DNA of 64,000 nt, from assembly GCF_964355755.1 (NCBI RefSeq), contig NC_092675.1, positions 21,528,912 to 21,592,911 of the forward strand, given 5' to 3'. A model generated the notes under the pieces. The model made no database searches. It was not told the DNA's origin and worked only from the letters and a program-made list of their open reading frames with translations. The position numbers and the translations under genes are program-made. This stretch comes from Antedon mediterranea (taxonomy: Eukaryota > Echinodermata > Crinoidea > Comatulida > Antedonidae). Shown here piece after piece: positions 3,200 through 64,000 of the stretch. Positions within the stretch are counted from its first letter, which is position 1. Each line of letters opens with the position of its first letter.

Positions 3200-6100
3200 T
3201 CATGCTTTAGGTATCACGTAGATGTTATCTTGAGACGGAGAGATATCTTCGTATTCGTCATCATAAACTCCTGGAGAGCAGTCGTCTTTTTCTGACATCT
3301 TCGACACCTGATAACTGCCATCTTTTAAACGTATCAATCTATTACCTTTTGAAGCAGAGATATCTTCGTATTCGTCATCATCAACTCCTGGAGAGCAGTC
3401 GTCTTTTTCTGACATCTTCGAAACCTCATAACTGCCATCTCTTACCAATCTATTATTTTGAGAAGAAGACATATCTTCGTATTCATCATCATATATTCCT
3501 CCTGGACAACATTCGTTTTCTTCTGGCGACTTCGACGACTTACAACTATTGTCTTCCATAGGTACCAAGTAGAGAGTATCTTGATTGTTAGGAGTTTTAT
3601 CTGGATGGAGAATAGTTTCGTAGATATCTTCATCAATTCCTGCACATCCGTCATCAACATCTTGATAGACATCTTCATCTGTCTGACCAATTATAGTACG
3701 TTTGATAAATGATGTCTCGTGACCAGTTTGAATATACGTATTACTAAGACCCTTCTCTGAAGGCATGTTCGGATTGTCTGCTAAATCACATACATGCTTT
3801 CTTCCTCGTTGCTTTTTATGACGACAGATTACAGTTATAAGACATACCGTGGCTGCCAGAATAAATAGAAGCACCCCAGCGCCAACATAGATGAAACTAT
3901 AAAGTAAAAAAAACAATATGGTTTTGAAGAAAAACTTAAAATATAATTTGATCAATCATTCGCTTTCGTCCTAGTTGGAATCAAGCTTAAGGGTGGGATA
4001 CATTACATCTACAATAGCTTACTTAACATACTGAAGCCATGGTTGATTTTCCATTACGTCAATATGAACCAATACAAAATCCGTTTTTGTGTTTCCGATA
4101 ACGTCGGTGGCTCGAATCCAAATTTGGTATGTTCCAGATTCTTCTTCGTCTTTAAAGTAAATATCGACAATGTCTTTCTATAAATTGCAAGCAAATTGAA
4201 TTATTAGAATGCTTTAAAATAGTTTATAAAGACCTGTTTAAACACCTTTCTTACAGAAACAAATACAATTATTAGATAAACAAAAGGTTAATTCTTTGCT
4301 ATATTTTGTTTCTGATTTATATTTAGCTTCGTTTGTTACATCTTTGCTCCAATAAACAGGCCTCTATGGTATTGTATTTTATATTGAAAGTAGGCTTACT
4401 GTGTTGTTTGAATAATTACTACAATACTGTATAAAAATAGAAAAAATTATATGTTAAGGTAACCTACAAGTTTTGTTATATCTTTCCAATCTGGTTTCAG
4501 TAACGTTTCTCCTTCAGTGTCATCCTTTAAAAGTCCGAATTCAAACTTGATAATTCCATTTATATTATTAATAGCTGATACGGGACGCCCCGATGGATGT
4601 GCCTCTGAATCGTAATCCAATGTGACGTCATCATCGGTTTTAATTGCAAGTAAAAGACTTTCGTTCATGTGGAGTTTGTTTATGAAGTGACCCTTCCATG
4701 ATAACGTTACCTAAAAAATATATATACATTACCGAACGTTAATTTTATACTTGTAAACATTACGATGCATAGGAATGATAAATATATAGATAATAATGAA
4801 ACACCTTTAATCATGAAAATGTTTCCGAAAATGAAATGAATTATTATGTTGATACCGAAATAAAACTAGAAACCCTCCTTGCCACCATGTTCCAATGGTC
4901 CTTTTAAACAAATTTGACCAATATTCTGATGAAGCGCTTGCCAGAGGTAGTGATTTTTTAAACGAATGTTATAAGAAAAATATAGAGCAAGCAACTCAAT
5001 ATATTATTCAATGGATTATATAAATATATTGCTATCTTTGAAGAAATTGATAGTCAAACCTAAAAAAAAGAAAATGTTTTTTAACGAATAATATTTCGTG
5101 TATCGCTGATTATATAATAATAAAAATTCAGAAAAATAACGTACAGCTTCGTTTTTAAAGACTGACAATGTGCTATTGTCTATAATTGAGTCTTCACCAA
5201 CTGTCAGATAGATTGGATTATCGTCAATGATACTGATTACACTTTGGTTATCATAAATAAAACAACGCCGTGCATTACGTGTGTTTCCAGCGACATCATC
5301 AACCGTCAATATGACACAGTAAACACCTGTTATATTAAAGAACAATAAGTTGTTGTGTAAGGTTCGTATTGGGGTGACTTTGAAAAGGGCGACTTTGTAA
5401 AGGGGCGACTTGATCACTCCCTATCACTAGGCTTAATTCTAAGCACAATGCAAAGTTTTTTATGGAAATAACAGTATTTTAAAAATAGATACAACTTCTG
5501 ATTTAAATGTATTTACAATTGAAAAAAAAAATGGTTATTGAAAATAGATTACATCCGTTGATGACCACATGAACTTAAAAGCAAACTCACCAGTTGATGT
5601 CAGTTTAAATGTCACACGATATTCCCCATTTCTCTGTATATAATTTAGAGGACCAAAATCATCTTTGGGAATTAAAATATCATTTTTTGCTGCCATTTTG
5701 AAAACGCGGCACTTGTAAGGTTGTGCTGTCAATCCAGAAATATAGTCAGTCCATGCCGTCCAACTAATATTAACTTCATTCTAGAAAGAAACATAGCAGT
5801 GTTTTTTATCTGCACATATAAATAAAATAATAAAAAGGTATTTATTGAAGTACAAACACACCGTGTGTGTTAGTCATATTGAACACAACACGTTTTAAAA
5901 CACTGGTCTATAATGCAGAGTAACAATGTATTGTTACCAAGTAGTATAAAGTAAAAACTAGGAAGATACCCAAATCTCGTACAATAAATATTTTATTTTG
6001 GGGCAGAAACAAGAACTTTTTCCGTTTATTTTTATACAAATCTGGAATACTGTAAATTTAAGAATACTCATCTTCAGCTACAGTTACTCTAATTATATAC

Positions 6101-9100
6101 ATTTAATACAGTCAAGCATAGAATAATAAATCATTATCCCTAGTTCTATCACAGCAAGCTGTCGTTTGACTAGACTACAATATTTGTACTCTTGTGTATA
6201 TATTACCATTCTCGTATATGGATCACCAATGTCTAATGCATTCCCAACGCATGGAACATTTCTCGTAACAGAGCAATGTGTCGGCGGTTCAATATCAACC
6301 ATTACATTCACATACATAGTTATACTTTTTCCTTCATAATATTCACGTTCAGTAAGATCACCAGTAAGTGAAAAGTTCTTCAGGTGAAGATATCCACCAT
6401 TTGTCGAATCTGCTGTTAAGATCAAACTAAACCCACTCAACGATATTAGTGTCGTTAATTATTTTCATTAAGAATATTATACGTATTAGTTAATTGTATA
6501 GTTACTACGAAGTAGCTTTGTGTGGTGTAGATAAGTCAATTGATCAGATGTTTTGCCCTGCTCTGACTTGCATACTCCGTCAGAAAACACAATTACATTA
6601 ATATACTTACTTTATTTGTTTATTGAGAGGTTTAAATAATACACAATGGTCTGGCGTAAAAGATGGGTCTTAGTGCCAACCACAAATTCATAAAGTCTTT
6701 AAGTCTACTGATAAACATTGTTTTATTCAACACTTATATTAATCTGTCATCGTAGATTCTTTTCAAACTGCTGGTCAAATTTTGAACGATATCTTTACTA
6801 TATTGTGTTAACTCTCCTTTGTTATTACAAATGTTTGTTTTTTTGACAAAAATAAGTAAAAATACCAAAATAACCTACAAAACTATTAATATTACCTAAT
6901 ATGATTGACAGTTTTGAAGTATTGCGCACATTGGTAATCAAGGAAGCCCAATAGCTAATAATAGCTTATTTGCATAATTCAGTAGGCTCTATATCAAATC
7001 CGGAATAAATACTGTAGACCATACCTGTCACCGTGTCGAAGTTGTTCATTCAAATTTTCAAAGGCATCACAGGAATACAGCCCCTGCTTTGGATTGTCTA
7101 GGCCAATGTTACCACCGCAATTTATATTTCCACTGCCAACAGCTTTATCTTCTACAAATAAAAATAAAAGCACCTACACTGATTTTTAGATTAATCTTAC
7201 TATTTAATATCTTATTTAACATATTAACGATTAATCTTTTTTTATTTAAATGATCTAAAAAATGTAGGGTGGCCACTGACTTAACTAGATACTATAACCA
7301 GATACTGTTTTACTAGGTAAAGGAATATCTATTATATTAAATTATTGTGCATCATTCTATCATACATTATTAGATATACACATACATAAATAAAATAAAT
7401 ACAAGTACAAAACTGACTCTCTTAACTACAATTATATACTGTATTATCAAAGCTGTACAGAACCATAAGAACACTTCTCTCACCTCGGATATGTTTCCAA
7501 TAAAAAGAAGAAGACGTAATACCAACTCTGTAATCGTAGATATAATATGGAAATGGATATTCATCCGACGAAGGACCAGAAAAGCTCGTTTGCCACTTGA
7601 TGGAAAATGCATTACCGTCAACTGATGAATAGCTGTATGTGTGTGACGCAGTTGAATACACGCAAGGTAGGTCAATGGAAGATATTCCATTACATTGTAG
7701 AGATATTGAACAATTTGTTACTTTTGGTGGCACAGTGACTGTAAATTAGGATATCAGAAAGTAAGTATTTAAGGAATTAGTGTTTGATACTAAAAAAAAC
7801 ATAATTTGTTCAATTGTTTAAACGACACACCAGTAACAAATGATGCACAATTGTATCTTGGTAATTTTCGACAATTATTCACTTATATTCATTATTTTGG
7901 GGGACATTTTGTTCCATGTGATTTCAGGAATCAAACAGAATATTTATTTAATCCAATTCAAATAACAAAAATCTACCTCACTTAATTATACAGGCTCTTA
8001 TAAAATATACCTTATTTATATTTGTTTTTACTTCTTTTAAATTACATTATTAACTTGTCACAGAAATTTGAATTTTGATTTTCCATAGAATAAAATAACT
8101 TACTGTTCATGCAGTTGTCTTTGTCATCGAACTCGAAATCACAGTAACATTTATACGTATCATCACCTATGAGACCACAAGTACCCGGATAACACGACTT
8201 GCTATCACTTCTCAATGAACACGTTCCTTTAAAATAATATCGAGTAAATGACTAGTTGATCCTCAATAGATTTAGAAAAAAACAAGGCCATATACATGGC
8301 TGCAGTCGCGTGCTCAAGTTAGTGTTTACCGACCAACCGACCGACCAACCGACATAGTGAGCTGTAGAGTCGCGTTGCACGCGACTAAATACACACAAAA
8401 ACACTGAATAGTAATACTGATGCGATGATAAAAAGAATAAAGACAAATAAATGAGAAAAAGCAATATACATCAAAGTTAAACACTTACGTCCGGTACACT
8501 CGTTGATACCAGGAAGCGATGAATACCCACTGCAGCAATGACATGTATTTGAATAAACTGTTCTGTACCTAGTGACCGATCGATATGCTTTTCTATAATA
8601 ATTAGACAAACAAGTAGAGTATCAGGAATAAAAGTATAGTTTTGTTCCACAATGAATAAGTAAAGGTTTTTGTGTATCAAATTTATACATAATTCCAAAA
8701 AAATAATACAGATGCTGGACATTATAGCCCTATGTAATAATGATAATACTATGCATGGACTTATATGGCGCTTTTAACTTAAGTGAGAAAGTGCTTGGAT
8801 TATGGATTAAAAAAATTAAAAGACTATAATTACAAGAAAATACATGATGATATGATGTCTAATTTGTAATTTGTTAAGAACATGTCGTATATAAGTGAAA
8901 AAAGGCAAAAATTATTAAAAACCAAGGCCACAATTACACCAAAATAAAAGAAATGACTAATAAACGACACCAACAATACAACATACAAGTATAGCGTTTT
9001 CAGATATTTCCTAAAAAGTTCAACATTTGGCAGAAGTTCGAAAAAATAAAATGTCATTTGTTCATAAAATTGTCACCAAGATCGTTATTACTGATGAAAT

Positions 9101-9658
9101 GAATATGCAGTATTTGTATCACCATTAAACTGTGCTATTTGAAAATATTATCACAACTCACCGGTAACGAGTTCTCCTACAACGGTCCCAACCAAAAGCG
9201 CCACACTTAGTGTATGTCGTATAACTTGACGAATATGACTGGCTGGTGCTGTACGCCTCTGATGAACTTACTAGTGTAGTACATACGTTTTTCCTTTATT
9301 TTGTTACAAAAGAACATGGAAATGTACGTTTATTCATTATTGCTTCTTTTCCCCTTTAATTGAAATTAATTTTTCAAATTCTGTATTTGAAAAGCAGTGT
9401 TAAAAACACAAAGGATTAATTACAATTCAAATAGAAACAGTTGCACGGCATCAGAAGGGTTTATGTAAATAGAAAAACAGATCTTCTTTCAAAGTAGTGT
9501 GATATGCAAGTATTTATTATTATAAACATAAAATAAAAAAAAAATTGTCTTAAAGTTAAGCTCTTAAACATTATTACTAACCCATTTGGATTCAAAGTAT
9601 GCACGTGATTCCATAAAACTATATTGAAAACTACGAGAACCAAGTAACGGAGTGCCAT
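3200..9658 (-). CDS. Receptor A: EMI/EGF-like single-pass receptor with acidic YED(I/M) repeat tail
   Basis: The coding exons in transcript order are 9582-9658, 9162-9293, 8489-8592, 8104-8226, 7484-7738, 7025-7151, 6207-6426, 5591-5780, 5145-5326, 4468-4710, 4023-4177 and 3200-3896. They sum to 2505 nt, in frame throughout, giving 834 aa. Residues 1-25 are a signal peptide (MALRYLVLVVFNIVLW). Residues about 27-104 form an EMI domain (NVC start, CGAFGWDRC, YRTVY, CCSGY), like Draper/CED-1/MEGF10. About 105-145 is an EGF-like module. About 146-602 is a cysteine-poor ectodomain of FN3/HYR-like repeats (ISWTAW, VDDVAGNTRNARR, WIRATDVIGNT). A transmembrane helix starts near 603 and is followed by a basic stop-transfer. 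The cytoplasmic tail has YQDV, YETI and three acidic DDEYED(I/M) units. I infer an engulfment or innate-immune receptor; the ligand is unknown. I chose this ATG because it opens the signal exon right after an acceptor. Confidence 0.85.
3240..3480 (-). repeat. Tandem coding repeats of about 118 nt in the tail of receptor A
   Basis: Two nearly identical blocks start at about 3240 and 3358, and a third, more diverged copy starts near 3470. Each encodes an acidic run plus YED(I/M), a short spacer and SY(E/Q)VSKMSEKDDCSPG. The high nucleotide identity of the first two copies implies recent duplication inside the exon. Each unit adds two tyrosines, and the acidic residues just before YxxI resemble the hemITAM context seen in Dectin-1-type receptors. 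Confidence 0.75.
8281..8390. mobile_element. AGTCGCGT/ACCGACC dispersed element, copy 1
   Basis: It lies in an intron of receptor A. It has AGTCGCGTGC at 8304-8313, a (CCGACCAA)n-type run, and then AGTCGCGT-TGC-ACGCGACT at 8368-8386, a perfect 8-bp stem. Copies with the same opening (aaggccatatacatggctgc), run and end occur at 10966-11142, 43692-43782 and 44256-44362. It is a short non-coding interspersed repeat, MITE-like or SINE-like, whose insertion mechanism cannot be decided here. Confidence 0.6.
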
Positions 9659-11715: not shown

Positions 11716-14700
11716 TTAGGCCTTTCGTAAACATGATGTATAGTATAGATTTCCTTGACTAATAGAAGATTGACCAGGATTAGCGACTTCGTAGATATCA
11801 TCATCTGCTGTACATCTTTCTGCAATATCTTCGTAACAGCTGTCATTTGCTTCACCAACCGTACGTTTGAAAAAAGATGTCTCGTGACTTTGGTTTGTGT
11901 TACTGATGTCATGTTGGTATAAATCCTCATTTTTTTCTACTAAATCGCTTACAGCTTTGCGTTCATTTCGGCGTCGCTTCTTTTTATAACGACAGATCAA
12001 AACGAGAAGACACACTGCTGCCAGATTAAATATTATCCCACCAGCACCAGCATATATTACACTTTGACTATAACATATAAAAAAAACCAAAAAAAAAACC
12101 CAATGTTTTAATATTCTTCGGTACTTCACATATTTATAACCTATACGGCTTCGGATAATAATACAGTGGATATGCAACTGACTTACAGCGATGATTTCTT
12201 TTCTACACCGATTAAATTAACTGACATAAAATCCGTTCTGGTGTTTCCGATGACGTCAGTGGCTCGAATCCAAAATTGGTAACTTCCAGATTCTACTTCA
12301 TCACTGAAATTAACATCTACAATTTCCTCCTAAAATGCAACGTAATATAATAATAATAATAGGCCTACTTTGTTAATAATAAAAAGCAATCAAATAATTA
12401 TATTATCTGTTATCTAAGAGTTGCTAACAGAAACATAAGTCATGGTAATAAGTTAACCTACAAGATCTGGTAAAGTTTTCCAATCTGGTGTCAATGTCGT
12501 TTTTCCTTCAATAGGCATTTCTTCCTTAAATAGTCCAAATTCAAACTTTATAATTCCATTTGCATTATCAATGGCCGATAAAGGGCGTCCTGCTGGATGT
12601 GCCTCTGAATCGTAAGCTTCCTGGAATGTGACGTCATCATCTGATTTAATTGCAAGTAAAATACTTTCGTTCACATGTAGCTGATTTATGAAGTGACCAT
12701 TCCATGATAACGTTACCTATTGACATTTTTAAAAATAATTATTGTTACAATTTTATAATAGGCCTAGTCAACATTGACAGAATATAATGTTATCTACGTT
12801 TAGGGCCAATAATTACTCAAATGTAAAATACTATTGTCAAATAAAGATATATCAGTTAGATGAAGAAAAAAAAAACAATGATTGAAATTAAATCCGTCAA
12901 AAAATGAAATAACTTACATTTTCAACAACGTTTATGGACACATCAGAGTTATTATTGAATGTCTCTCCGTCAATTGTTAGATAGATTGGATTATCGTCAA
13001 TAATACTGATTTCACTTTGGTTATCATAAATAAAACAACGTCTTGCATTACGTGTGTTTCCAGCGACATCATCAACAGTCAAAATTACACAGTAAACACC
13101 TGTATGAAAAAGACATATTTAAAAAAATATTTATTTAAAAACAGGACGTTGTTTTGTGAGACTTCTATTCTATATCATTATACTTATTACTATCTAAGAT
13201 AGGCAGACACAATGTTGAGAAAGCTACCGTCTTGGATATTGAGTATCATATTGTAGCTACTCCAGATGTTCCGCGAAACCTATATTTTACAAGATTATAC
13301 ATAGTCTAACCCTACGGTATATTTGATGATACAAATGATTGGTAACATGTTGGTTTTTTTGGTTCACGGTAGATCTTCTGTTATAGTGGGTTATAAAAAC
13401 ACGAGTATTTCGGTACAGTAACACCAAAACTTAACTTACCAGGCGTTGGAAGCGGCCTAAACGTTACATTATATCTAACGCCACTCTGTGTGTAATCTAA
13501 AAGACCGAAGTCATAATCAGGAATTAAGTTATCGTGTGTGGTTGCCATTTTTAAAACGCGACACTCGTAAGATGGCCGAGCTGTCAACCCAGAAACATAG
13601 TCAACCCATGACGTCCAACGAATATCAACTTCAGTCTAGAAGAAATCATATTTTTACCGTAAGTAGGCCCTATAACTAATATACTTTTCCACATTATGAC
13701 AATTTTACACTCTACTTGATCATGTATTCAATCGTAAACATTTGAAATTGTTTTTTCTTTATATGATGGAAGATAGTTCTTACAGATCTTGTATATGGAT
13801 CTCCAATGTCTAATGCATTCCCCACACATGGTACATCTAGTAAAGAACAATGTGTCGGCGGTTCAGTATCGACCTTTACATTCACATACATAGTTACAGT
13901 TTGTCCAACATAGTATTCACGCTCGTTTCTTTTATTCCCAGAAATTGAATAGTCATAGTTTTTCCGTTCAATATATCCACCATTTGTTGCATATGCTGAA
14001 AATAACAAACTAACAAAGAAAAATGTTGTTAGAATTTTGAACTGGAATAAAAATAAAGTAATCTTTGTCTGTAATTACAATGAATTCAATGACATCTTAC
14101 CTGTCTTTGTGTTGAAGTTGTTCACTTAACCTTGCAAACTTTCTACAGTAATGCAACCCTTGCTTTGGATTATCAGGACCAATGTTAAAATCACAATTAA
14201 TGTTTCCATTTTCAATAATATTTTCTCCTAACAAACAATTTGGATAGTTAGTGCTTAACAAACAACTGAAATAATGCAATTTCTAGCAAACACGAAAATA
14301 TGATCTAGATGCTAGGACTAGGGCCTACATTTAGTGTACATACACAGTACATTTACTGTACAACACTCACCTCTGATGTGTTCCCAATGAAACGAAGATG
14401 ACGTAATACCAACTCTGTAATCGTAGATATAATATGGAAATGGATATTCATCCAATGAAGGACCAGAGAAACTCGTTTGCCATTTGATGGAAAATGTTTT
14501 ACCATTAACTGAGCTGTACATGGGTGACGCAGTTGACAACAGGCAAGGCATGTCGCTGGAAGATATTCCTTTTAGTCGCAGAGATATTGAGCAACTTGTT
14601 ACTTTTGGTAGTACACTAACTGTAATTCACAATACAAATACTGTATCAATACTATTGACTAATTAAGCAATTGTAATTAATAAATAGAATAAAACATTTT

Positions 14701-17361
14701 TAATATAGATAAAAATATTAGATAATAAAAAAATGTTCAACATACAAATTACAGTGAACACCAAACAAAATATCTTATTTGATCATAATCTCCATTCTTG
14801 TTTTTCTTTCAAACTTAAAATATAAAAATAATATAACATTTAACATAGCTTACTGATCATGCAATTGTCACCGTCACCAAACTGGGTGTCGCACGAACAT
14901 GAATCTGATGTGAGTTTACAAGTACCCGGATAACATGACCTGCTATTCCTTCTCCATGAACATATTTCTGTAGAGAACATGAACTATATATAAATAATGT
15001 AAGTGACCTCAGCATTTTAGCTGTTAAAATAGTATAGGTATGTATATTATATATCTTATTAAGATACTCCGAATTAAGTTGTGCTTTTCAATATGCTATC
15101 ATTCATTGGACATTCGTTGTTTCTCCACATACGACAATTTGCCCAGTATAATAGGAACATTCGTTAAACACAGCATCTCATGTGTATCACATGCGGTGTC
15201 TCTATCCTGTAAGGTTAGGCTATCTGTTACCAGGCGATACGTAGGAAACACATGCTGTATTCGGAATTTTCCTATGATACTAAAGAAATTTAGATAAAGT
15301 ATGGATAATCGAAAAGAATATTGAGGGGTACAGTATATGATTTATAATTTATTTTTTTAAACATCAATAGCACCTTTGTTTATGACAATTTATGAAAATA
15401 GGACGCAATAGAAATCTTTCGATTTAATGTAGGCCTATATTTCCAACAACGGATCATTCGTTTCACTTCAATTGAAACTAAAACGTTTATAATTTACTAG
15501 ATACCGTATCGAACTGCAATGGAATCGCAGCTCAAAAAGTGATTCAATATAGAGAAGGAACTCGGAATATACTGTAATAAGCTCATTGTTTGGAACACCA
15601 TTAGACACATCAAACCATGAATTAAACTTACTATTACATTGCCCATTAATTAGTTGATAAGCTTTAATTTCGTCATTAATGTGATACATACATCTTGTGC
15701 AGAATGAATTTGAACGTGTGGAACAATCTACAACTTGGCAATTATCAATATCTGTTGTACAAGCTGGAGAAAAAAATAAAGTATTTGTAAATAATCGTAT
15801 GTAACACAACATAACAGTAAGTTTAAAATATTAAAAACACGTGAATAACTTTACTGTATTGACATGTCGGTCCATGGTATCCTTTGTAGCATTCACAGTG
15901 ATTAGGCTCATCACATACCCCATTGCTGCAATCATACTCACATATAGCTAAAATGGAAATTTAAATTAAAATCTCGTTAAGGAACAAACAGATATGTTTA
16001 TTATATTTTGTATCTGTTTTTCATCTGTTTTTAAACATTCATTCGCGATTGAACTTATATTCTTTAGAAACCAACTGTGAGTTTGCTTCTCCTATAGATT
16101 CTAAGCATAGGTATATACAGATACCTGCTTATACTCATCCTGGATGGAAATATCCTATTCCACACTACATGGTACAAACTCGATCTTAATTCATGCTAAA
16201 TCAGTTAATAACTTACGTTTGGTACACTCATTACTACCAGGATATGATGTATACCCACTGCAACATTTATATGTTTTGGTATAAACTGTTCTATACCTAG
16301 TGACCGATCGATATGATGTTCTATAATTTAAGAAAGAAATCGACCTTCAATGGTGAAATAATATTTAAAAACAATTACTATATCAGGCATATCTAAAAAT
16401 AGGAATGGATTGATTGACTAACATTTAGAATGGGGCACCATACGCAGCAAAAGTGTACATTTTAAGAATCACTGTATATTTCAGAATAACACTTTTGCTG
16501 GGTACCGCGCCAAATACAGTTAGTCAAGCAAAAATCTTTACCAGTTGGGCTTCCTACCGCCACAGCAGCTTTTTCTAATGGTATTGTTTGTTTGTTTGTT
16601 TTTATTCGTTTACCACACACATTTTAATACAAAGTAAGACAAGTAATTATTAAAAGATCATTATTCTATCTTTAATATAACACGGGATAACTGCCATTGT
16701 CAAAAGTATAACATCTTATCTGTGATATGAAGTGATATTCAGTAACATTTGAAAGTACAACTTACCGATAGTGAGTTCTACTACAAGTGTCCCAAAACAA
16801 AAAGCCACAGGAAGTGTATGTACTATAACTTGTAGCATATGACTGGCTGATGCTGTACCTTTGTGACACACTTGTCGAAGTAGTACAAACGTTTTGTCTT
16901 CGTTTTGTTACAAACATATAAAAAAGTATGTTTATTCGGTAACTTCTTTTCAACGTTAAAAAATGTCAAGGTAATTGTAATAAACACAAAATAAGAAATG
17001 TACATTGAAATGCATACAGGATAGGCTAGTTTCCTAGAACGAGATGATTTTATACTAATAGAATACTAATATTTTATTTTAAAACAAGGTTATTAAACGG
17101 ATTTAGCTCACTTCCAATACAAAAAAGGAATGTACTAAAAAGATGTTTTAAGTACAAAATAAATTGCTGACCACATTGAGGCCTGTTTTGTACTCTAGCA
17201 TGTTATACAGAACATTAAGACATATTGTGTACTTTATTTATGAACAAATTAAGCTAAATACTTAAAATTATTATTACTAACCCATTTGTGTTCAAAGTAT
17301 GCACACAGTTCCATAAGAATACATTGATAACAACTACAAAAACCAAGTAACGGAGAGCCAT
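11716..17361 (-). CDS. Receptor B: EMI/EGF-like single-pass receptor with short tyrosine tail
   Basis: The exons in transcript order are 17282-17361, 16766-16897, 16217-16320, 15855-15947, 15632-15763, 14854-14967, 14371-14619, 14101-14227, 13784-14009, 13440-13635, 12918-13099, 12462-12716, 12187-12329 and 11716-12067, totalling 2385 nt, in frame, 794 aa. There is a signal peptide (1-26) and an EMI domain (NVCTT, CGFLFWDTC, YRTVYTKTYKCCSGY). Next comes a canonical EGF domain (about 105-136), then a cysteine-rich EGF-type exon (about 137-180), then the EGF-like exon shared with receptor A. The long shared ectodomain (WVDYVSGLTARPSYECRV, VDDVAGNTRNARR) follows, then a transmembrane helix at about 681-703 and a short tail with YEDI, YEVA and LYYT. 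Two exons (15855-15947, 15632-15763) are absent from receptor A. All module exons are phase 1-1, which allows gain or loss without frame damage. Function is inferred as for receptor A. Confidence 0.85.
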
Positions 17362-43645: not shown

Positions 43646-43691
43646 GTCACATATAGCCTGTACTAATAAGAGTTTCCTGGTAAGAATAATT

Positions 43692-47374: not shown

Positions 47375-47379
47375 GAAAT

Positions 47380-50553: not shown

Positions 50554-51303
50554 TGTAAGACACAAAAAAGAATACACTGCGTCCTCACTGTTGTTATACG
50601 ACTCAATCTCAAACTTTAATGCAACGTAAAATATGGTACACACGAAACATTAATTTGTATGGTATTTGGTTCGAAATCTGTAAGATATAATAATAACTCG
50701 CAAGTTAAGCAATTGCTATAGCGCCATCTATAATGGAAATCACTCAAGCGTGACGACCGATCTACGCTACAATCAGTACGATCGGACAAAATGAATACGC
50801 TATAAATAACTAAACTATAGGAATACCGTCAGCGGTGGTTCTAAACAATGTAACTAACCACATAACACATGAAATATAAACAATATGATTATCAAATTCT
50901 ATGTTAATAAATCCAGGTGATCTGTAAATATATCTACGTACGTTAACATGTTATTTCTGTATACTAGCTATCATTATACAAGTTTGCGTACGTAACATTT
51001 ACACAAGATGGATGCCAAAGGCGAAAACTACATGCATCCTCATCAACACTTATGCATAAACTAATTATAAATATTATAACAGTATAACGTTGATTCTGAT
51101 TATGATCTAACAATGATTAGCTATACTAATACTCACTCTTGAGCTCTCAATTAACAACCGAAAATTAAACTGTAGTTAACAATAATATGCCGTGTCTCAG
51201 AAAATCACACACGTGCGTCTATTACTGCTTCTCGTTACCTACACTAACATAAAAAATCACAACATAAATATAGAGGGCGTACTTCAATATCCTAAACGAT
51301 ACA
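50554..51303 (-). repeat. 3' LTR of the BEL/Pao element
   Basis: It is 750 bp. On the element's strand it starts TGTATCGTTTAGG and ends GTGTCTTACA. The other LTR is at 56353-57105. Confidence 0.92.
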
Positions 51304-51328
51304 CTCCCCCACCAAAAACAACACTAAA

Positions 51329-54300
51329 CTATTGTTCTTCAATTGGAAGGATTACAACTAATCGTTGCACAGCTCGTTTTAATGTTGTTACTAAACCATT
51401 TTCTGTATGAACTCGAACTTCCGCATTCCTCACTCTATCATCAGTACTTTGGTATGTCTCTGTTACCCTGCCTAATCTCCATTTACCTCTAACTGCATTA
51501 CTATCTTGTATCAACACAACGTCACCCTTCTTCACATCACGTCTTATGGTATGCCATTTCTGTCTTATAATCAATGAAGGAAAATAATCCCGCGTCCACT
51601 TCTTCCAAAACCCATTTACCAAGCATTGTATGAACTTCAGTCGATCCTTAATGCTTACGTTATCACTCCATGGTTCATCTGGTACCTTTCCAGTAGATCT
51701 GCCCAACAATAAATCATTTGGAGACAGATATGACCCATCCTGTGGATCTGTAGGATGCTTTCCAATCGGCCTCTCATTTGTTAAATTCGCTACTTCAAAC
51801 ATAACAGTCTGAAGTTCACTGAAGGCAAGCACCTGTCCACCGATTGCATGACTAAGCGCTTTCTTAATCCCTCTAATCAGACTCTCAGTCACTCCATTCT
51901 GCCAGGGAGCATCAGGTGTAGAAAACTTCCACGTTGTGCCATGGTTCACCCCAAAACTCTTCAACTGTTTGGCTGCTGCACTCAGCTGTGTCCCAGCATC
52001 GCTGTATACTTCTTTGGGGTATCCTCGAAGTGAAACGAACTTTCTGAACACTTGCAGGAACGCGTCTGTACTATAGTCAGTGGCTATGTCGATGTAGACT
52101 GCTCTCGTCACAAAACAATCAAAAACTACACCGTATGCCTTTCCTCGAGCTCGCTTGTTAACTTCACCTCTTGTTGTGAATGGCCCAAATAAATCAACCC
52201 CTATATACATCCATGGTGGTGATGGTTTCAGTCGAGTAATTGGTAATGGTCCCATTTTCTGAGCTGCAGTGTTTTTCTCAAACCGCCTACAAGTTACACA
52301 ATGGTACTTAATGCTTTTGACCATTCTCTGTACGTCAATTATCCAGTATTTCGATCGAATCTTGGCAACGATTGACTGCACTCCCAAATGCCCTTTACTA
52401 TGGATTTCTTTAGCGTATAGTTTCGTAAAAGCGTTATCGTATGGCAACAAAGGTACTTCTTGCTTATTGTAGCTGAAATGTACGTTTCGACTTATTCTTT
52501 CTCCCACAACAATTACTCCATCTTCACGAATCTTAGGCCCCAAGCGAGCGTATGTCTTGTCAAATTTAGTTTTATCTTTGGATAATAGATTTATCATTAT
52601 TTTCTGCGATTCCTTTATCCAGAAATGTTCCGCACCTTTAGTATCCTTGACCTCGATCTCTTCTAATATACTCTTTAGTCTCCTTTTCTCATACACTTTG
52701 AGAACTCTGGCAGTCACCCTTAACAACTTCTGATACTTGCTCTGCCGTCTAATTATTCTATCAGCTAATGAGTCTTCCTCTTCGATGTTCACTGCCATGA
52801 CTATCTTCACTCGTTCTGGAAGGGTCTTTATATTACAACTTTGTTCAATTGGCCAATTCTCAACTGGCTGTCGCAAAAACTCTGGTCCCCTTTGCCACTC
52901 ACTATTTGGCCCAATCTGGGATGGATTCATTCCTCGTGTGATTGCGTCCGCTATATTAACCTCTCCTCTACACCACCACCAATCTTGAGGTTCCGTGTCT
53001 TGTTGTATCTCCCCGATTCTTGTGGCGGCAAATGTTTTGAACCCATAGCTTTGTTTTTGTACCATGGCTTGTACAATCTCGCTGTCTACAACATAAAAAA
53101 CTTGGTCAAACATAATTCTCGTCTCATTTATGATATATTGTGCCAATCTCTTACTCATCACCGCTGCACTTAGCTCCAATCGCACCACGCTAATAATCTC
53201 TATTGGAGCAACCCTGCTTTTACTGGCAACGATTTTAGATGAAAATTGTCCGTCCCACTGTTCGTAACGGACGTATGCCACTGCGCCTAACGCCTTCTCG
53301 GACGCATCAGAAAACATAATCAAACTTGGTAATATGCCCGGCTTTGCATCCAACGGTTTAACGCATCTCCTAAATTCGACGCTTGATGTTGTACTTAAAT
53401 CTTCAAATAAATCTATCCACTCCGCCCTCTCGCTCATGTTTATAGCTTCATCCCACTCTAATTTAGCTCCCCACAGCTTTCGAAGTAGAATCTTTGCCCT
53501 CACGGTGATTGGAGTTATCAACCCCAAAGGATCATACACAGAATTGATTTTGCTTAGGCATATACGTTTGGTTAACACTTCTGGTATCTCCTTGAAGGTA
53601 CGAACGTTGTCCGTGAACGCAAGAACGTCATCACCTGGTTTCCAACTGATTCCTAACACCTTCTCTTCCTTTGGATTCCATGTTTCTTCAAGCTTTTCTC
53701 TTCCCGAGAATATCCAATGCTTTATGGCGAAATTTCCTGGCTGTATTAATTTCTCTCTTTCTTCCGCTCGTTGCCTTGCTTTCTTTGCGGATTCTTCACA
53801 CTCCAGAATGTCATCCACATAAACATTGTTTAAAACTGTCTCTGCGGCTTCAGGTGTTGACAGTTTCCCTGCTTTTGCCGTTTTCCTCAAAGCCACTGTT
53901 GCTATGGTGGCAGATGGACGGTCTCCAAAATTTACAGCAGTCACGCAATAGGTTTTTGGTAGGGTATTCTGGTTCAAATCTCTCCAGAGAAACCGATGAC
54001 AGTGCTGGTCCAGCTGGGTGATAGCAACACTATGATACATCTTTCTTATGTCACCTACCAGTGCATGAGGTTTTTCTCTGAATCTCAGTAGAACAGCTAA
54101 CAAGTCATTAACAAGGTCGGGTCCTTTGGCCCAATAGTCGTTAAGAACATGTCCCTTGTAGGCCGCACTGCTATTAAAGACGATTCGCACTGGGGTGCTG
54201 GAACTATCAGGCTTTTCTACTGCATGGTGAGAAATATAATGTATTGGTCCTTTGTATTCTTGCAATTCCATTTCCTTTATTTCTCTCGCCACCCCTCGTT

Positions 54301-55483
54301 TCAACATATCTGCTATTTGCTCTTCGTATATCTTTTTCTTTGCTGAGTCTTTCATTAATCTTTTCTCTAGCGCTGCTAACTTCGCCACCGCCACTTTTTT
54401 GTTATCTGGTAGATTGTTTGGGTCTTTGATCCAAGGGTACCTTGCGGTCCATTTACCTGCTTCATACAGTAAGTTGTCTTCTATCAACTTTAATTCACGT
54501 TCTTCTTTCAGAGTGTACTTCTGCGCTCCACTGGGGCATTTGCCACATCGACACGAACCACATTTAGGCTGACAGTTAACCCCCATACTTTCTATCGTCA
54601 GAAAGTCGTCAAAGGACGTTGTCTTAACATAGTTCACTAGTATTCCTGCCCCTTCTTCCCATTCGATAGAAGGATGAGACCCTCCAATACACTGACCAAA
54701 CTGGTTTTTCAGTAGAACTAGATGACCACATGCCTTGATCTTCGTCGGATGGTAACCAGCATACTCGTATCCAACTAACAAGTCGACCTCTCCAGTTGGT
54801 CTCTTGACCTGCTCAGGATATACATTAAGTATTTTGGCGAGGTTTTCTAAGTTCTGATTGCCAATTTTTGCCGTTATCTTCGGAATCCCATAGGCTTCTA
54901 CTGCAACACAGTTTCCCATATTATCATTCAGTAATATTTTATATTTCATGCTGTCGATGCATTCGGTTTGCCCGCCTACTTTGGTCATGCTTATTTTCAC
55001 TGGCCTTCCCTTTGCCTTTATGCGTTTGGCCGCATCATGTGTGATTAATGACGCCGTCGCACAACTATCCCAAAGAGTGTTGAGCTCGTTCTTGCCGCTC
55101 CTCACTTTCATCAATTGTAACAAACAAGGGTCAGATTTCATCTGTAAGCTATTTTCAAGGGACGACACTGTCGGAATTGGTTCTGTGTTCTGAGTCTGCT
55201 GATGTAACAGCTTGTGATGAAGTCTCCTGCAACCATCCGTATCGCATTGCTTCTTCCCTTTACACTTAGCAATGATGTGGCCGGCTGTTAGGCAGCAGAA
55301 ACATGCTCGGTTTTCTTTCAAGATGTTCAGCCTCTCATCCACAGATTTGTTCAAGAAGGTTCGACAATTCTTGGTTTCGTGTTGACTTTCTTTGTGTAGA
55401 AGGCACTTTGGTCTGCTAGATATTTCTACCATGTGCATCGATGCGGCTGCTTTGGTGGGTTGGTTTGTCCGTATTGCCCCCAA
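51329..55483 (-). CDS. BEL/Pao Pol polyprotein (protease, RT, RNase H, integrase)
   Basis: One open frame of 1384 aa. Near the start are Cys/His modules (CLLHKESQHETKNC, CFCCLTAGHIIAKC), then an aspartic-protease-like LWDSCATASLI site. The reverse transcriptase follows, with GDIRKMYHSV and the catalytic NVYVDDILE box, then an RNase H-like region (FSDASEKALGAVAY). The integrase has a zinc domain (GHLGVQSIV...CVTCRRF) and catalytic D, D, E in GVDLFGPF, YSDAGTQL and NGVTESLIRG. Domain order and motifs are typical of BEL/Pao. It overlaps the gag frame by about 68 nt in another frame, so it is probably expressed by frameshifting. No internal stop is present. Confidence 0.92.
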   Translation of the reverse strand: MGAIRTNQPTKAAASMHMVEISSRPKCLLHKESQHETKNCRTFLNKSVDERLNILKENRACFCCLTAGHIIAKCKGKKQCDTDGCRRLHHKLLHQQTQNTEPIPTVSSLENSLQMKSDPCLLQLMKVRSGKNELNTLWDSCATASLITHDAAKRIKAKGRPVKISMTKVGGQTECIDSMKYKILLNDNMGNCVAVEAYGIPKITAKIGNQNLENLAKILNVYPEQVKRPTGEVDLLVGYEYAGYHPTKIKACGHLVLLKNQFGQCIGGSHPSIEWEEGAGILVNYVKTTSFDDFLTIESMGVNCQPKCGSCRCGKCPSGAQKYTLKEERELKLIEDNLLYEAGKWTARYPWIKDPNNLPDNKKVAVAKLAALEKRLMKDSAKKKIYEEQIADMLKRGVAREIKEMELQEYKGPIHYISHHAVEKPDSSSTPVRIVFNSSAAYKGHVLNDYWAKGPDLVNDLLAVLLRFREKPHALVGDIRKMYHSVAITQLDQHCHRFLWRDLNQNTLPKTYCVTAVNFGDRPSATIATVALRKTAKAGKLSTPEAAETVLNNVYVDDILECEESAKKARQRAEEREKLIQPGNFAIKHWIFSGREKLEETWNPKEEKVLGISWKPGDDVLAFTDNVRTFKEIPEVLTKRICLSKINSVYDPLGLITPITVRAKILLRKLWGAKLEWDEAINMSERAEWIDLFEDLSTTSSVEFRRCVKPLDAKPGILPSLIMFSDASEKALGAVAYVRYEQWDGQFSSKIVASKSRVAPIEIISVVRLELSAAVMSKRLAQYIINETRIMFDQVFYVVDSEIVQAMVQKQSYGFKTFAATRIGEIQQDTEPQDWWWCRGEVNIADAITRGMNPSQIGPNSEWQRGPEFLRQPVENWPIEQSCNIKTLPERVKIVMAVNIEEEDSLADRIIRRQSKYQKLLRVTARVLKVYEKRRLKSILEEIEVKDTKGAEHFWIKESQKIMINLLSKDKTKFDKTYARLGPKIREDGVIVVGERISRNVHFSYNKQEVPLLPYDNAFTKLYAKEIHSKGHLGVQSIVAKIRSKYWIIDVQRMVKSIKYHCVTCRRFEKNTAAQKMGPLPITRLKPSPPWMYIGVDLFGPFTTRGEVNKRARGKAYGVVFDCFVTRAVYIDIATDYSTDAFLQVFRKFVSLRGYPKEVYSDAGTQLSAAAKQLKSFGVNHGTTWKFSTPDAPWQNGVTESLIRGIKKALSHAIGGQVLAFSELQTVMFEVANLTNERPIGKHPTDPQDGSYLSPNDLLLGRSTGKVPDEPWSDNVSIKDRLKFIQCLVNGFWKKWTRDYFPSLIIRQKWHTIRRDVKKGDVVLIQDSNAVRGKWRLGRVTETYQSTDDRVRNAEVRVHTENGLVTTLKRAVQRLVVILPIEEQ

Positions 55484-56318
55484 ATTTCAGTAGTTCTGGG
55501 AATCTATCAGTTTTATCGACACCGTTGGCTTCTTCATGCATATGTCGGACCCATCTTCCAAACACTGATGGTGGTAGTTTCTTTTCTATCTCTCCCACCA
55601 CCTTGGAATTAGATATTTCTCTTTCTAGTCCTGCTCTTTTCAGGTCGTGATAACTTGCTTCCACTTTGTCGATATATGTCACTAGTTTGTTATCTTCGCC
55701 ATCTTTAATTTCTCGTTTCTGTTCTAATTCACTTACAATTGTATCTACTAATTTCACTTTGTCGCCATATCTCTCGTCAAGCCTTTCCCACATTAAATCA
55801 ATATTATCTTCAACTGGTCCCAGAATTTTTAGCGGTGCTTGCCCTAGAGTTTGCCTCAAGGCAAACGACAATTGTTTAGGATGTGTCACAGGAATCACGA
55901 AAGTCTTGAAGTCCTCCTTAAATCTAGCGTATCTTCTAACGTTACCTTCAAATCTAGGCAAATCCATCTTTTTTAGTTGCAGTGTTGATCGCTTTTCCTT
56001 TGGATCTCGTTCATCTTCCTGAACTTTCACTGGTGGGTTTACGTTAGCTTTATATTTGATAACACCACGACGGACGTCGTTGAATCTGTTCTGTACCTCT
56101 TCTATCCATGCTGCTTGTTCAGCATCTTCTGGATCTTCTATTTTCATTTGAATCTCTACATGTAAGTCTTGGATTTTCTTCCAGATCTCAGTCATATCTA
56201 CAATCAGAATCTCTAGATATTCTACCGGACTGGACTCTTCCATTGCTTGCTGTATTGTCTTTATGACTCTGGTCATAGCACCTTTCTGCACACTACGTCT
56301 TCTTTTTATCTCATCCAT
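55416..56318 (-). CDS. BEL/Pao Gag
   Basis: The first good ATG (56318) begins MDEIKRRRSVQKGAM just inside the 5' LTR; the frame runs 300 codons and overlaps the start of pol. It has the features of the family's Gag: an N-terminal helical region, a basic LKKMDLPRFEG block, then FKEDFKTFV and a C-terminal LPPSVFGRWVRHM stretch. The usual zinc-knuckle region is read in the pol frame. I chose this ATG because upstream codons in the frame lie in the LTR. Confidence 0.85.
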   Translation of the reverse strand: MDEIKRRRSVQKGAMTRVIKTIQQAMEESSPVEYLEILIVDMTEIWKKIQDLHVEIQMKIEDPEDAEQAAWIEEVQNRFNDVRRGVIKYKANVNPPVKVQEDERDPKEKRSTLQLKKMDLPRFEGNVRRYARFKEDFKTFVIPVTHPKQLSFALRQTLGQAPLKILGPVEDNIDLMWERLDERYGDKVKLVDTIVSELEQKREIKDGEDNKLVTYIDKVEASYHDLKRAGLEREISNSKVVGEIEKKLPPSVFGRWVRHMHEEANGVDKTDRFPELLKFGGNTDKPTHQSSRIDAHGRNI

Positions 56319-56352
56319 TTCAATGGATTGTAGTAAAGATAGGAATTTCGAA

Positions 56353-57105
56353 CGTAAGACACAAAAAAGAATACACTGCGTCCTCACTGTTGTTATACGA
56401 CTCAATCTCAAACTTTAATGCAACGTAAAATATGGTACACACGAAACATTAATTTGTATGGTATTTGGTTCGAAATCTGTAAGATATAATAATAATAACT
56501 CGCAAGTTAAGCAATTGCTATAGCGCCATCTATAATGGAAATCACTCAAGCGTGACGACCGATCTACGCTACAATCAGTACGATCGGACAAAATGAATAC
56601 GCTATAAATAACTAAACTATAGGAATACCGTCAGCGGTGGTTCTAAACAATGTAACTAACCACATAACACATGAAATATAAACAATATGATTATCAAATT
56701 CTATGTTAATAAATCCAGGTGATCTGTAAATATATCTACGTACGTTAACATGTTATTTCTGTATACTAGCTATCATTATACAAGTTTGCGTACGTAACAT
56801 TTACACAAGATGGATGCCAAAGGCGAAAACTACATGCATCCTCATCAACACTTATGCATAAACTAATTATAAATATTATAACAGTATAACGTTGATTCTG
56901 ATTATGATCTAACAATGATTAGCTATACTAATACTCACTCTTGAGCTCTCAATTAACAACCGAAAATTAAACTGTAGTTAACAATAATATGCCGTGTCTC
57001 AGAAAATCACACACGTGCGTCTATTACTGCTTCTCGTTACCTACACTAACATAAAAAATCACAACATAAATATAGAGGGCGTACTTCAATATCCTAAACG
57101 ATACA
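56353..57105 (-). repeat. 5' LTR of the BEL/Pao element
   Basis: It is 753 bp, identical by eye to the 3' LTR except for a longer ATA run near 56490 and the base at the inner edge. Confidence 0.9.
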
Positions 57106-57491
57106 GTCACATTAATATGCTTAAAGAATATGCCGAACATGTTTCTCGCGATGTAAAACCAAATTGTGCGGCTGTAGCTTGTAACAATGACGGTGGCTCT
57201 CACAATGATTTAAAAGAAAAGGGCAAGGAATATGATTTAAAACTAAGCAACTCTGATGTAATGAACAATTTACAACAAAAGTTAACTCATTTATCAATAG
57301 AACAACAGAGTCAATTGAGTACACTTGTGAATAAATGGAACGGTATCTTTTCTGACACCCCTAGTGTAACAAATGCTGCAATCCATGATATCATTGTTGG
57401 GGATACACAACCTATTAAGCAACATCCTTACAGGGTGAATCCAATTAAAATGAAGTATCTCCATAAGGAAATTGAATATAATTTATGTTAA
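57106..57491 (+). pseudogene. Continuation of the Gmr1-like integrase end and RT N-terminus
   Basis: After the second copy of the GTCAC target duplication the Gmr1 coding resumes (NMLKEYAEHV), then runs through a linker to FSDTPSVTNAAIHDIIVGD and KQHPYRVNPIKMKYL, the usual entry into a Ty3/Gypsy RT. The frame stops at 57491, where an out-of-frame change separates it from the main RT frame. Confidence 0.8.
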
Positions 57492-58672
57492 AAAATAGTA
57501 TAATTGAGCTTAGTAAAAGCGACTGGAGTTCGCCATGCATGCTTGTTCCCAAGTCTGATGGTTCATATAGACTCGTGGCGGATATGCGAGCAGTTAATCG
57601 TTGTTTAAAAACAGACTCGTATCCAATTCCGAGAATTGAAGATTTAATAGATAAGGTGGGGAACGCAAAATTTGTTAGTAAATTTGACCTTTTAAAAGGC
57701 TACTGGCAAGTGCCACTAACGCCGCGCGCCCAGGAAATTTCTGCGTTCTGTACCCCGTTCGGGCTTTATCAATACAGGGTGATGCCGTTTGGCCTTAAGA
57801 ATGCGCCCGCGACATTTCAGCGAATGGTAAATCGACTTGTAGCTAACGTAGAAGGCTGCGAGGCGTACGTTGATGACCTGATAGTATACAGTCAAACTTG
57901 GGAGCAACACATGCAACAGCTAAATAAAATGTTTAAAGCTTTGTCACAAGCAAACCTAACTGTAAACTTAAGTAAGAGTGAATTCTGTCATGCTACGGTT
58001 ACGTATCTTGGTCATGTTGTGGGGCAGGGAAGGGTTAGACCCATCAGGGCTAAGGTTGAGAGTATTTATCGGTACCCAGCACCCACAAACAAAAAATCGT
58101 TGATGAGGTTTTTAGGGATGGTGGGGTACTATCGGAAGTTTTGTCCCAATTTTTCTAGCGTAGCAGGTCCTCTTACAGAATTGCTTAAGAAGAATGTAAA
58201 ATTTAAGTGGTCGGATATATGTGAAAGTGCCTTTAGGAAAATTAAGTCTATGCTAATGTGTGAACCAATCCTTATAGCACCGGATTTTAAGAAACAATTC
58301 CGTTTGTATGTAGACGCCTGTGATGTGGGGATTGGTAGCGTTCTCATGCAGAAGAACGTTGATGGGATAGAATGTCCCGTATGTTATTTTTCTAGAAAAT
58401 TAAGTAAACATCAAATGAATTATTCGACTATTGAGAAAGAATGTCTGGCACTATTGGAGTCGTTAACGCACTTTGATGTATATGTAAGCACTACCGTAGA
58501 CCCAATAATTGTGTTCACTGACCACAACCCACTTACCTTTATTTATAAAATGCGAAATAAAAATCAGCGGTTGCTGAGGTGGGGACTAACTTTACAAGAA
58601 TACAATGTTGAGATTAAGCATGTTAAAGGAAAGGAAAATGTGATTGCCGATGCTCTGTCTCGTGGGGTGTGA
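57485..58672 (+). CDS. Reverse transcriptase-RNase H of the Gmr1-like element
   Basis: The frame is open for 395 aa. Its RT motifs are SDWSSPCMLVPKSDG, RLVADMRAVNR, FDLLKGYWQVPL, FGLKNAPATFQRMVN and the catalytic AYVDDLIVYS box. The RNase H follows (LYVDACDVGIGSVLMQ, STIEKECLAL, VFTDHNPLTF, KGKENVIADALSR). It is placed after the integrase, the reverse of ordinary Gypsy order. The reading frame was lost from the upstream part by a small insertion near 57480, so the ATG at 57485 is only an ORF start, not a natural start. Confidence 0.9.
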   Translation: MLKNSIIELSKSDWSSPCMLVPKSDGSYRLVADMRAVNRCLKTDSYPIPRIEDLIDKVGNAKFVSKFDLLKGYWQVPLTPRAQEISAFCTPFGLYQYRVMPFGLKNAPATFQRMVNRLVANVEGCEAYVDDLIVYSQTWEQHMQQLNKMFKALSQANLTVNLSKSEFCHATVTYLGHVVGQGRVRPIRAKVESIYRYPAPTNKKSLMRFLGMVGYYRKFCPNFSSVAGPLTELLKKNVKFKWSDICESAFRKIKSMLMCEPILIAPDFKKQFRLYVDACDVGIGSVLMQKNVDGIECPVCYFSRKLSKHQMNYSTIEKECLALLESLTHFDVYVSTTVDPIIVFTDHNPLTFIYKMRNKNQRLLRWGLTLQEYNVEIKHVKGKENVIADALSRGV

Positions 58673-58680
58673 ACAATATA

Positions 58681-58770
58681 AATATTATGAATGTAATGCA
58701 AATGAATATAAATATTATGAATGTAATGCAAATGAATATAAATATTATGAATGTAATGCAAATGAATATA
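58681..58770 (+). repeat. Three exact 30-bp tandem repeats
   Basis: The unit AATATTATGAATGTAATGCA plus ten more bases is repeated three times without change just after the RT-RNase H stop, in the element's 3' untranslated region. Confidence 0.9.
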
Positions 58771-59045
58771 GATGTGTAAAATTAAGAATAATGTATGTAT
58801 ACTTGTGTGAAAAAAAAAATAGTAAAAAATACAAGTTAAAATAGTGATATGTAGCCCTAAGGTAAAGAAAAGTAGGAAATGTAATAAAAATGGAAGTGTT
58901 AAAAAAAAAAAAATAGATGAATAAAATGAAAATATATGATGATGTAATGTGAAATTGAAATTGTGTAATTAATTAGAGATGTTTTTGTAAATACCAGTGG
59001 TTGGTGAGGAGGCACCAAAAGTTTTCCTGACGAAAAACTAACTTT

Positions 59046-59056
59046 AAGGGGGAGAG
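59046..59056 (+). other. Polypurine tract of the Gmr1-like element
   Basis: AAGGGGGAGAG immediately precedes the 3' LTR. Confidence 0.85.
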
Positions 59057-59499
59057 TGTTACGTGTGACGAGAGTCAGGTGTCACATGTCGCATGCAAAT
59101 GAATCAAGTCGTCGGTGGTCAAGTGGACGAATCAGAATGGAGCATGGTGGTGCGCGGTATTTTGGAAAGCTGTGCTGGGTGTGGGATACAAAGAAGGGAG
59201 TCACTCAGGAGACAGGGCCAGCTAAGGACGCTTGCGGTTAGAACTGTGCTTGAGACTGGAAGCGAGGCAGGACGATAAGAATGGGGAGGTTGTGATGTGT
59301 ACGGATGGCCAGGCAAACCAACCACTCGGTATCATACGTATCTATAATTGTGTTGTTATGTATTTTGTGCTTCGTGAAAGGAAATAAATGGAGCTCGTGC
59401 TCTTTGCATAATACTCTGAGTGTCGACAATTGTTTGTTCCAAGCCTCGTTGTTGCTATTTATTTAGGTATTTCGGCCTAGGCCAAAAGTGGCCGTAACA
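59057..59499 (+). repeat. 3' LTR of the Gmr1-like element
   Basis: It is 443 bp, matching the 5' LTR except for a 6-bp insertion at about 59097-59102. Confidence 0.92.
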
Positions 59500-62348: not shown

Positions 62349-64000
62349 CTAATGACGTCTTGAAGTTATAGTTTGGTAGGTGTCATCTTCAACTACATTT
62401 ACCTGACTGAAGTTTAGGTGATTGTACTCGTTTGAATTGCCCTTTTTAGTTGACGCGAGAGTTTGATCATCATCAACGCATGTGCTTGTTTCCTGTTCAA
62501 CAGGTACGTTTACCTCCGCATTTGGGCAACTGTAGTAATTGGAATCGTCCCCTTCAGGTGACTGGACACTTTGGTAGGTATCATCATTGACTCTTGTGTG
62601 CTGTGTGTCTTGTTCAGCAGGTGGGGTTACCTCTAAGTTCAGGCGACTGTAGTCATTGATATCGTCCTTTTCAGGTGACCGGACACTCTGGTAGGCATCA
62701 TCGTCAACTCTTGCGCGTCGTGTGTCTTGTTCTGTAGGTGGGCTTACATCTAAGTTTAGGCAACGGTAATTAGAATTGTCATTTTTAGGTAAGGCTAAAG
62801 CCTGGTAGGTATCATCATCAACTCCTTTAGCAGTCCCGTCTGATTCCCAGTTTAGGCAACTGTAGTCATTGGAATTATGCTTTTTGAGTGAGGATAAATC
62901 CTGGTAGGTATTATCATCAACTCTTTCAGCAGGCCCGTCTGACTCTAAGTTTAGGCAACTGTAGTCATTGGATTTGCCCTCATCAGTTGACGCGAGAGTT
63001 GTGTAGGTATCGTCGTCACCTCCTGCGCGTGTGTCTTGTTCAGTAGGTGCGTCCAACAACTCCAAGTATAGGTTGCTGTCATCGTCGGAATTATCCTTTT
63101 CAGGTGTGGCTACCGTAAGGTAGGTATCATCAATTCTTACACGTCTGACTGGAGCTTTTTCAGAATTATTCTCTTCTTCTAAATCTATGTAACTTCCATC
63201 ATCTAAATCATCTTCAAAAGTATTGAAGCCTTGGTTAACCTCACCAGCGCGATCTGAAGTTATTAACTCCTGGTAACTTTCTTCTTGACTTACGCAGTTA
63301 ACTTTTTGAACAACGGTATTATTTGGAAACGACGTTTCTGGTGACTGGTATGTGTTATCAAGATTCATGCTGTCGACATACATGTTTCGGTTATTTTGTT
63401 TTGAATTTCTAACTGCGGTCTTTTTTTTAAATCCCCGATGCTTCTTTTTTTGACAATAGAATACGACGAGAAGACATGCCGCCATAATAAATATAAGCAG
63501 TCCAACACCAGCATAGACCACACTACAACGAAAAAGTAATATAAAGTATATATAAAGTTATTTTTATTAATATCATTACCATGTGTGCTGTGTTGTTATT
63601 TACCATATCCTGAAGTTTTACAGGGGTCAAGCTTAAAGTTTTTTTAACTTATTTGGCCCCTTCACACTTCTCTGATTAGCAAGTACAAGCAAGTATCTTT
63701 ATTTATAATTAATTTTATTAACATATTTATTATTTATTATTGATACCTGCTTACTGAATTTGTACTATTTGTATTTAAAACGTGAAAAAATTAAATAAAA
63801 GAAAGAAAAGAAATATTGGTGATAACGCTATACATTACACAACTATTACTCTAATCGTGTACTGTAGATTATTACAGCGATGAAGTTATTAAAAACTTCC
63901 TCCAAAAACTTACTGATTATAACTTGATGATGATGATGATGATGATGACGATTTCTCATTAGTTACATCAATATGAACCAATGCAAAATCTATCTTCGTG
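62349..64000 (-). CDS. Receptor D, 3' end: transmembrane helix and multi-ITAM-like tail (partial)
   Basis: The last exon 62349-63522 and the preceding exon from 63914 (running out of the window) join in phase. The upstream exon ends the shared ectodomain (KIDFALVHIDV, as in receptors A and B), followed by a polyserine run encoded by (TCA)n. The last exon gives a transmembrane helix (VYAGVGLLIFIMAACLLVVF), a basic stop-transfer and about 365 cytoplasmic residues. Counting from the first full codon of this exon, about eight units of 33-39 aa recur from residue 132. Each has DDTYxxL/V, an acidic/polar spacer, then YSCLNL. Strict YxxL-x(9-10)-YxxL pairs occur at 173/187, 206/220 and 239/252. This is the ITAM consensus used by Syk/ZAP-70-type kinases, so I infer a strongly amplifying phosphotyrosine receptor. 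Neither the ectodomain start nor the ligand is visible. Confidence 0.83.

Follow-up and report, generated by a model that had tools for sequence, protein, structure and literature searches.

A cluster of EMI-headed receptor genes with divergent tyrosine-bearing tails in the crinoid Antedon mediterranea

A cluster of paralogous receptor genes

The window, a 64,000-nucleotide stretch of the Antedon mediterranea genome (C6:21528912-21592911; genome 354 Mb, 18 contigs), carries on its minus strand three paralogous receptor genes, A, B and D, together with the 5' part of a fourth gene, C, and a pseudogene. Searches of this genome found let-7, which marks a bilaterian, and turned up neither mir-2 nor cellulose synthase. 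We assembled the models of A, B and D manually, combining splice sites and phases with the homologous blocks that self-comparison and exon-by-exon searches placed at 3.2-9.7 kb (A), at 11.7-17.4 kb (B) and at the window end (D). Gene A runs from 9658 to 3200 in 12 exons (834 aa) and gene B from 17361 to 11716 in 13 exons (763 aa). Gene D, with 13 exons and 1051 aa, has its tail exon (63522 to 62349) inside the window; its other 12 exons span window coordinates 70081-63914 and lie mostly in the right flank, from C6:21592912 onward. The main features are listed below in window numbering.

9582-9658, minus strand: signal-peptide exon of A (M..HTLNPNG), with counterparts in B, C, D and the pseudogene
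8489-9293, minus strand: EMI domain of A in two exons (9293-9162, 8592-8489), Pfam EMI 20.1 bits, profile positions 1-68/69
8104-8226, minus strand: cysteine-rich EGF-like exon of A, six cysteines with C-x-C spacing, no Pfam match
4023-7738, minus strand: common ectodomain X1-X7 of A (exons 7738-7484, 7151-7025, 6426-6207, 5780-5591, 5326-5145, 4710-4468, 4177-4023), 67% identical to B and D over the whole ectodomain
3200-3896, minus strand: transmembrane (TM) and cytoplasmic exon of A, carrying the HETSF word and a threefold DDEYED(I/M) repeat
17282-17361, minus strand: signal exon of B
16217-16897, minus strand: EMI domain of B in two exons (16897-16766, 16320-16217), Pfam EMI 19.7 bits, profile positions 1-68/69
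14854-15763, minus strand: cysteine-rich exons of B, EGFb (15763-15632) and EGF1 (14967-14854), no Pfam match
12187-14619, minus strand: common ectodomain X1-X7 of B, Big_13 Ig-like 21.5 bits (cut-off 27)
11716-12067, minus strand: TM and short-tail exon of B, with HETSF, one YEDI and YEVA
26146-29737, minus strand: pseudogene, consisting of a signal exon (29737-29657) and an EMI1 exon with disrupted frame (about 26285-26146)
34992-37302, minus strand: 5' part of C, signal 37302-37223, EMI1 36674 to about 36534, EMI2 35610-35507, MEGF/PEAR1-type EGF 35087-34992
62349-63522, minus strand: TM and cytoplasmic exon of D, with PETSF and a tandem ITAM array (20 tyrosines, four strict ITAMs)
63914-64000, minus strand: exon X7 of D, which extends to 64086 and is cut by the window end
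64438-70081 (C6:21593349-21598992), minus strand: exons of D from signal to X6

A, B and D are intact, with no stops or frameshifts. All introns are of the GT-AG type, with one series of phases, 2-2-1-(1)-1-1-2-0-1-0-0-2, common to the three genes; A lacks one cysteine-rich exon (EGFb) that B and D contain, a loss that is in phase. The first-pass annotation, made from the window alone, had called these genes paralogues on one strand and credited D with the common ectodomain, and both statements hold, although that part of D lies outside the window. At all five signal exons (9658, 17361, 29737, 37302, 70081) an acceptor-like TACAG/A abuts the ATG. Because this site precedes every start codon, the family may have an intron in its 5' UTRs or use spliced-leader trans-splicing.

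An EMI head on a common ectodomain

The proposed EMI domain (Pfam PF07546) is present. Matches span profile positions 1-68/69 in A (20.1 bits), B (19.7 bits) and D (23.9 bits), and C scores 23.0 bits; these values of 20-24 bits fall just below the Pfam cut-off of 25, though all four matches are full length. A chance match is unlikely, since the position, the two-exon split and the full length recur in four paralogues. A genome-wide Pfam EMI search returned one match only, an unrelated exon, and misses the family because an intron splits the domain here.

Behind the head lie one (A) or two (B, D) cysteine-rich modules, and X1-X7 make up the rest, a common ectodomain of ~450 residues. Over the ectodomain, protein identity among A, B and D is 67-69%. 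None of the A, B and D modules matches Pfam EGF, although by our reading the cysteine spacing of EGF1 appears EGF-like; of the EGF modules first proposed for the whole cluster, one of MEGF/PEAR1 type is found in C. X1-X7 gave no Pfam match above cut-off. The FN3/HYR-like repeats previously suggested were not found by domain search, which returned only a sub-threshold Ig-like Big_13 match in the membrane-proximal ectodomain of three of five members (21.5-25.8 bits, cut-off 27), and an X1-X7 profile searched against the PDB found no solved relative. Given that sub-threshold match and the lack of a solved relative, "FN3/HYR-like" stays a guess. Single exons are probably half domains, and the ectodomain as a whole is probably lineage-specific and Ig-like.

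Partial copies share the head. In C, the signal exon and EMI domain are followed by a single EGF exon of MEGF/PEAR1 type, all spliceable; we sought X1-X7 and a tail in C and found neither, so that, within the window's set, the common ectodomain described for the cluster applies to A, B and D and not to C. A similar partial gene, Z (C6:21628.5-21625.1 kb), likewise has a MEGF/PEAR1-type EGF after its EMI domain. The pseudogene, recognized as such from the outset, is a duplicate of the signal and EMI1 exons of B (87-91% DNA identity) in which a ~3 kb insertion splits the copy and the EMI1 frame is broken.

An N-terminal EMI domain after the signal peptide, a single TM segment and a tyrosine-bearing tail are also features of Megf10, Draper and CED-1, as is an ITAM, here in D only (read by Syk in Megf10 and by Shark in Draper; PMC8092387). 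The present family differs in having no tandem EGF array and no NPxY motif, in four strict ITAMs in D, in the extra ectodomain and in a kinase in the paralogue G described below. Were the cluster simply an expansion of MEGF10/Draper engulfment receptors within this lineage, the EMI domain right after the signal peptide, with its LxPNGxNVC start, and the EGF type of neighbours C and Z would be accounted for, but this reading sits poorly with the A, B and D tails, none of which has NPxY, with the missing EGF array, with ~450 residues of ectodomain absent from MEGF10 and with the kinase of G; we consider it unlikely. We looked for an EGF array and for NPxY, and since both are absent we do not assign the family to MEGF10/Draper, whose architecture this combination of EMI head and ITAM tail does not match. 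We found no published description of the architecture in the open-access papers searched, which is weak evidence of novelty.

A kinase-bearing sister gene

The cluster continues ~70 kb rightwards on C6 with paralogues E, F and G. E lies on the plus strand and lacks X4 as well as parts of X3 and X5. In F and G, two additional exons precede the TM segment. G joins the common ectodomain to a tyrosine-kinase domain in seven exons (C6:21651032-21653935; 248.6 bits to Pfam PK_Tyr_Ser-Thr); FGFR and Tie2 are among its best solved relatives. The assignment of these exons to G is a prediction from in-phase splice sites 147 bases past a juxtamembrane exon shared with F; F (C6:21624.9-21642.9 kb) has that exon at 66% identity and ends before the kinase. 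In F, the intron ahead of this exon contains a long (TA)n-type microsatellite.

The G kinase retains the AVK lysine and DFG, and its catalytic loop reads HRNLGARN. Since HRN replaces HRD, the kinase may be weak or inactive, a possible pseudokinase. The ErbB3 kinase likewise has an HRN loop. G thus resembles FGFR/Tie-group receptor tyrosine kinases in its kinase domain and ErbB3 in its loop, but differs from them in the EMI head and family ectodomain, in the replaced catalytic Asp and in having cluster relatives without a kinase. No kinase exons were seen beside E, F, H, I, J or K in the flanking sequence examined.

Further members lie elsewhere in the genome: H and I, almost identical copies ~120 kb apart on C3 (13.79 and 13.91 Mb), J at C6:5.18 Mb, and a family remnant on C5. 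H, I and J have short, tyrosine-bearing tails, with YESI..YETC in H and I. In an unrooted tree of the ectodomains, which gives no direction of tail change, support reaches 100% for each of three clades: (A,B,D), (E,F,G) and (H,I,J). Tail type follows clade, with a kinase found only in (E,F,G) and an ITAM array only in D.

Were the family rooted in receptor tyrosine kinases, A, B, D, F, H, I and J would be kinase-less co-receptors or decoys, their tyrosines substrates of a G-type kinase and not docking sites for Syk. The union of common ectodomain and kinase in G fits this idea, as does F, which ends in the very juxtamembrane exon that G extends into its kinase. Yet a kinase was found in one gene only, its HRN loop may leave it inactive, and kinase and ITAM members fall into separate, well-supported clades of an unrooted tree, which makes a kinase root rather improbable.

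Divergent cytoplasmic tails

The TM and juxtamembrane segments of A, B and D align up to an invariant ETSF, after which the tails diverge. The HETSF-type word first read in all three genes is HETSF in A and B and PETSF in D. The tails do differ greatly, along the lines first described: A has its three acidic units as DDEYED(I/M) repeats, and B has a short tail of about 87 residues with one YEDI and YEVA. Of the 20 tyrosines in D, 17 have a proline or a hydrophobic residue at +3. None of the three has a kinase domain; their own tail exons end first.

Using the strict definition YxxL/I-x6-12-YxxL/I, we counted four ITAMs in the D tail against 0.037 expected, a number matched in none of 2000 shuffles of the same tail. 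The array is tandem, and the roughly eight units first counted resolve into six two-tyrosine units, one without the first tyrosine and one half unit. Each of the five units from 2 to 6 retains both tyrosines, with linkers that vary. Two observations count against reading these proteins as ITAM receptors: a strict ITAM falls within a single unit in only three units of D, others having V or P at +3 and one having lost its first tyrosine, and the A and B tails contain no strict ITAM. Of the ITAM arrays first suggested for the cluster, that of D is borne out, with strict ITAMs in D only.

Multi-ITAM tails are familiar from CD3zeta-type immunoreceptor chains. D is like them in carrying several ITAMs per tail and in its likely reader of the Syk/ZAP-70 type; it is unlike them in its large ectodomain in the same chain and in having more tyrosine units.

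Constraint on the ectodomain and repeats in the tail

Among A, B and D the ectodomain is under constraint, as judged by a dN/dS of 0.37-0.43 at dS about 0.5. Tail alignments are short, unalignable or saturated (dS 1.2 to over 2.5), and pN/pS between repeat units is 0.8-1.0. Tail divergence is real, but selection for it, which the first-pass annotation had suggested, is not supported by these values.

The tyrosine repeats are products of tandem duplication within a single exon (75-84% DNA identity), and such an origin, together with a between-unit pN/pS near 1 and the degeneracy of several units, is what would be expected if they were unstable low-complexity sequence or YxxPhi endocytosis signals and not SH2 docking sites. 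Against this stand the paired tyrosines of the five central units and an ITAM count far above that of shuffled tails, and we regard the idea as quite improbable.

Candidate signalling partners in the genome

An orthologue of Syk lies at C6:~537-545 kb, with N-SH2 and C-SH2 domains followed by a kinase whose best solved matches are ZAP-70 and SYK, one two-domain EGFR entry aside. No ankyrin repeats were seen between the two SH2 domains. Other SH2 loci tried as Syk gave translations that we read instead as SHP-2, Grb2, PLC-gamma and RasGAP, genes also present in this genome. Because it holds both Syk and SHP-2 orthologues, a reader and an eraser exist and ITAM signalling is possible. The parts that D would need are in the genome; that they meet is what we infer. 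Mouse Megf10 and fly Draper provide a precedent for an EMI receptor acting through an ITAM and the Syk family, with Src-family kinases as writers, Syk or Shark as readers and, for Draper, Corkscrew/SHP-2 as eraser (PMC8092387).

One outer part, several tails

Judged from sequence, the family most likely consists of tyrosine-signalling surface receptors, D being ITAM-receptor-like. We favour, with moderate confidence, the view that these are type I receptors whose outer part, a lineage-specific ectodomain behind an EMI head of MEGF10/Draper type, is coupled to differing phosphotyrosine machinery. This explanation draws on direct observations: splice-consistent gene structures, the EMI match in A-D, the TM-juxtamembrane block, the motif content of the tails with ITAM enrichment and retained tyrosine pairs in D, the Syk, SHP-2, Grb2 and PLC-gamma genes, and the kinase domain of G. 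Weighing against it are EMI scores below the Pfam cut-off and an ectodomain without resemblance to solved structures. That exons were misjoined and the tails come from other genes is highly improbable: the joins rest on genomic homology, splice sites and phases, but exon order, phase and juxtamembrane block are alike in A, B and D, and no competing gene lies between.

Under the favoured explanation of one outer part with differing phosphotyrosine tails, ligand clustering of D would lead Src-family kinases to phosphorylate its paired YxxL/I motifs, the tandem SH2 domains of Syk would dock on the phosphorylated tail, and several consecutive ITAMs could amplify the signal. The repeated pYED(I/M) sites of A would resemble Src-family (pYEEI) ligands, with YEDM also a potential PI3K ligand; B would offer one weak site, and G might signal as a receptor kinase or pseudokinase. 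At the level of the cell, a plausible role is recognition that serves engulfment, adhesion or the triggering of immunity.

Engulfment and immune receptors are regarded as modular, and engineered chimeric receptors use that modularity. Here a natural cluster appears to have swapped tails, a constant outer part being joined to a kinase, to ITAMs, to acidic tyrosine repeats or to short tails, and G, a sister gene that carries a kinase behind this ectodomain, adds to its interest. Whether one EMI-headed ectodomain was fitted either with its own kinase or with a Syk-borrowing ITAM array, a direct exchange between receptor-kinase and immunoreceptor forms within one cluster, seems to us evenly balanced. 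The family bears on the relation between kinase-bearing and Syk-borrowing receptors and could show one outer part rewired to different signalling systems; as an in-genome series, it lets the effects of ITAM number and tail type on signalling be tested.

Surroundings of the cluster

Plus-strand open frames at 22009-22335, 24186-24482 and 24803-25024 have the appearance of a C-type-lectin-like module, a TM segment and a YYSTINV tail; the frame at 22009-22335 has no Pfam match. A ~2 kb inverted duplicate (18089-20152 and 31608-33907, 88-96% identical) brackets the pseudogene region. Between C and D lies a young nested insertion: a gypsy-like retrotransposon (46937-59499; terminal repeats 46937-47374 and 59056-59499, 98.6% identical) is interrupted by a BEL/Pao-like element (51329-56414, with repeats at 50555-51303 and 56354-57105 that are 99.6% identical).
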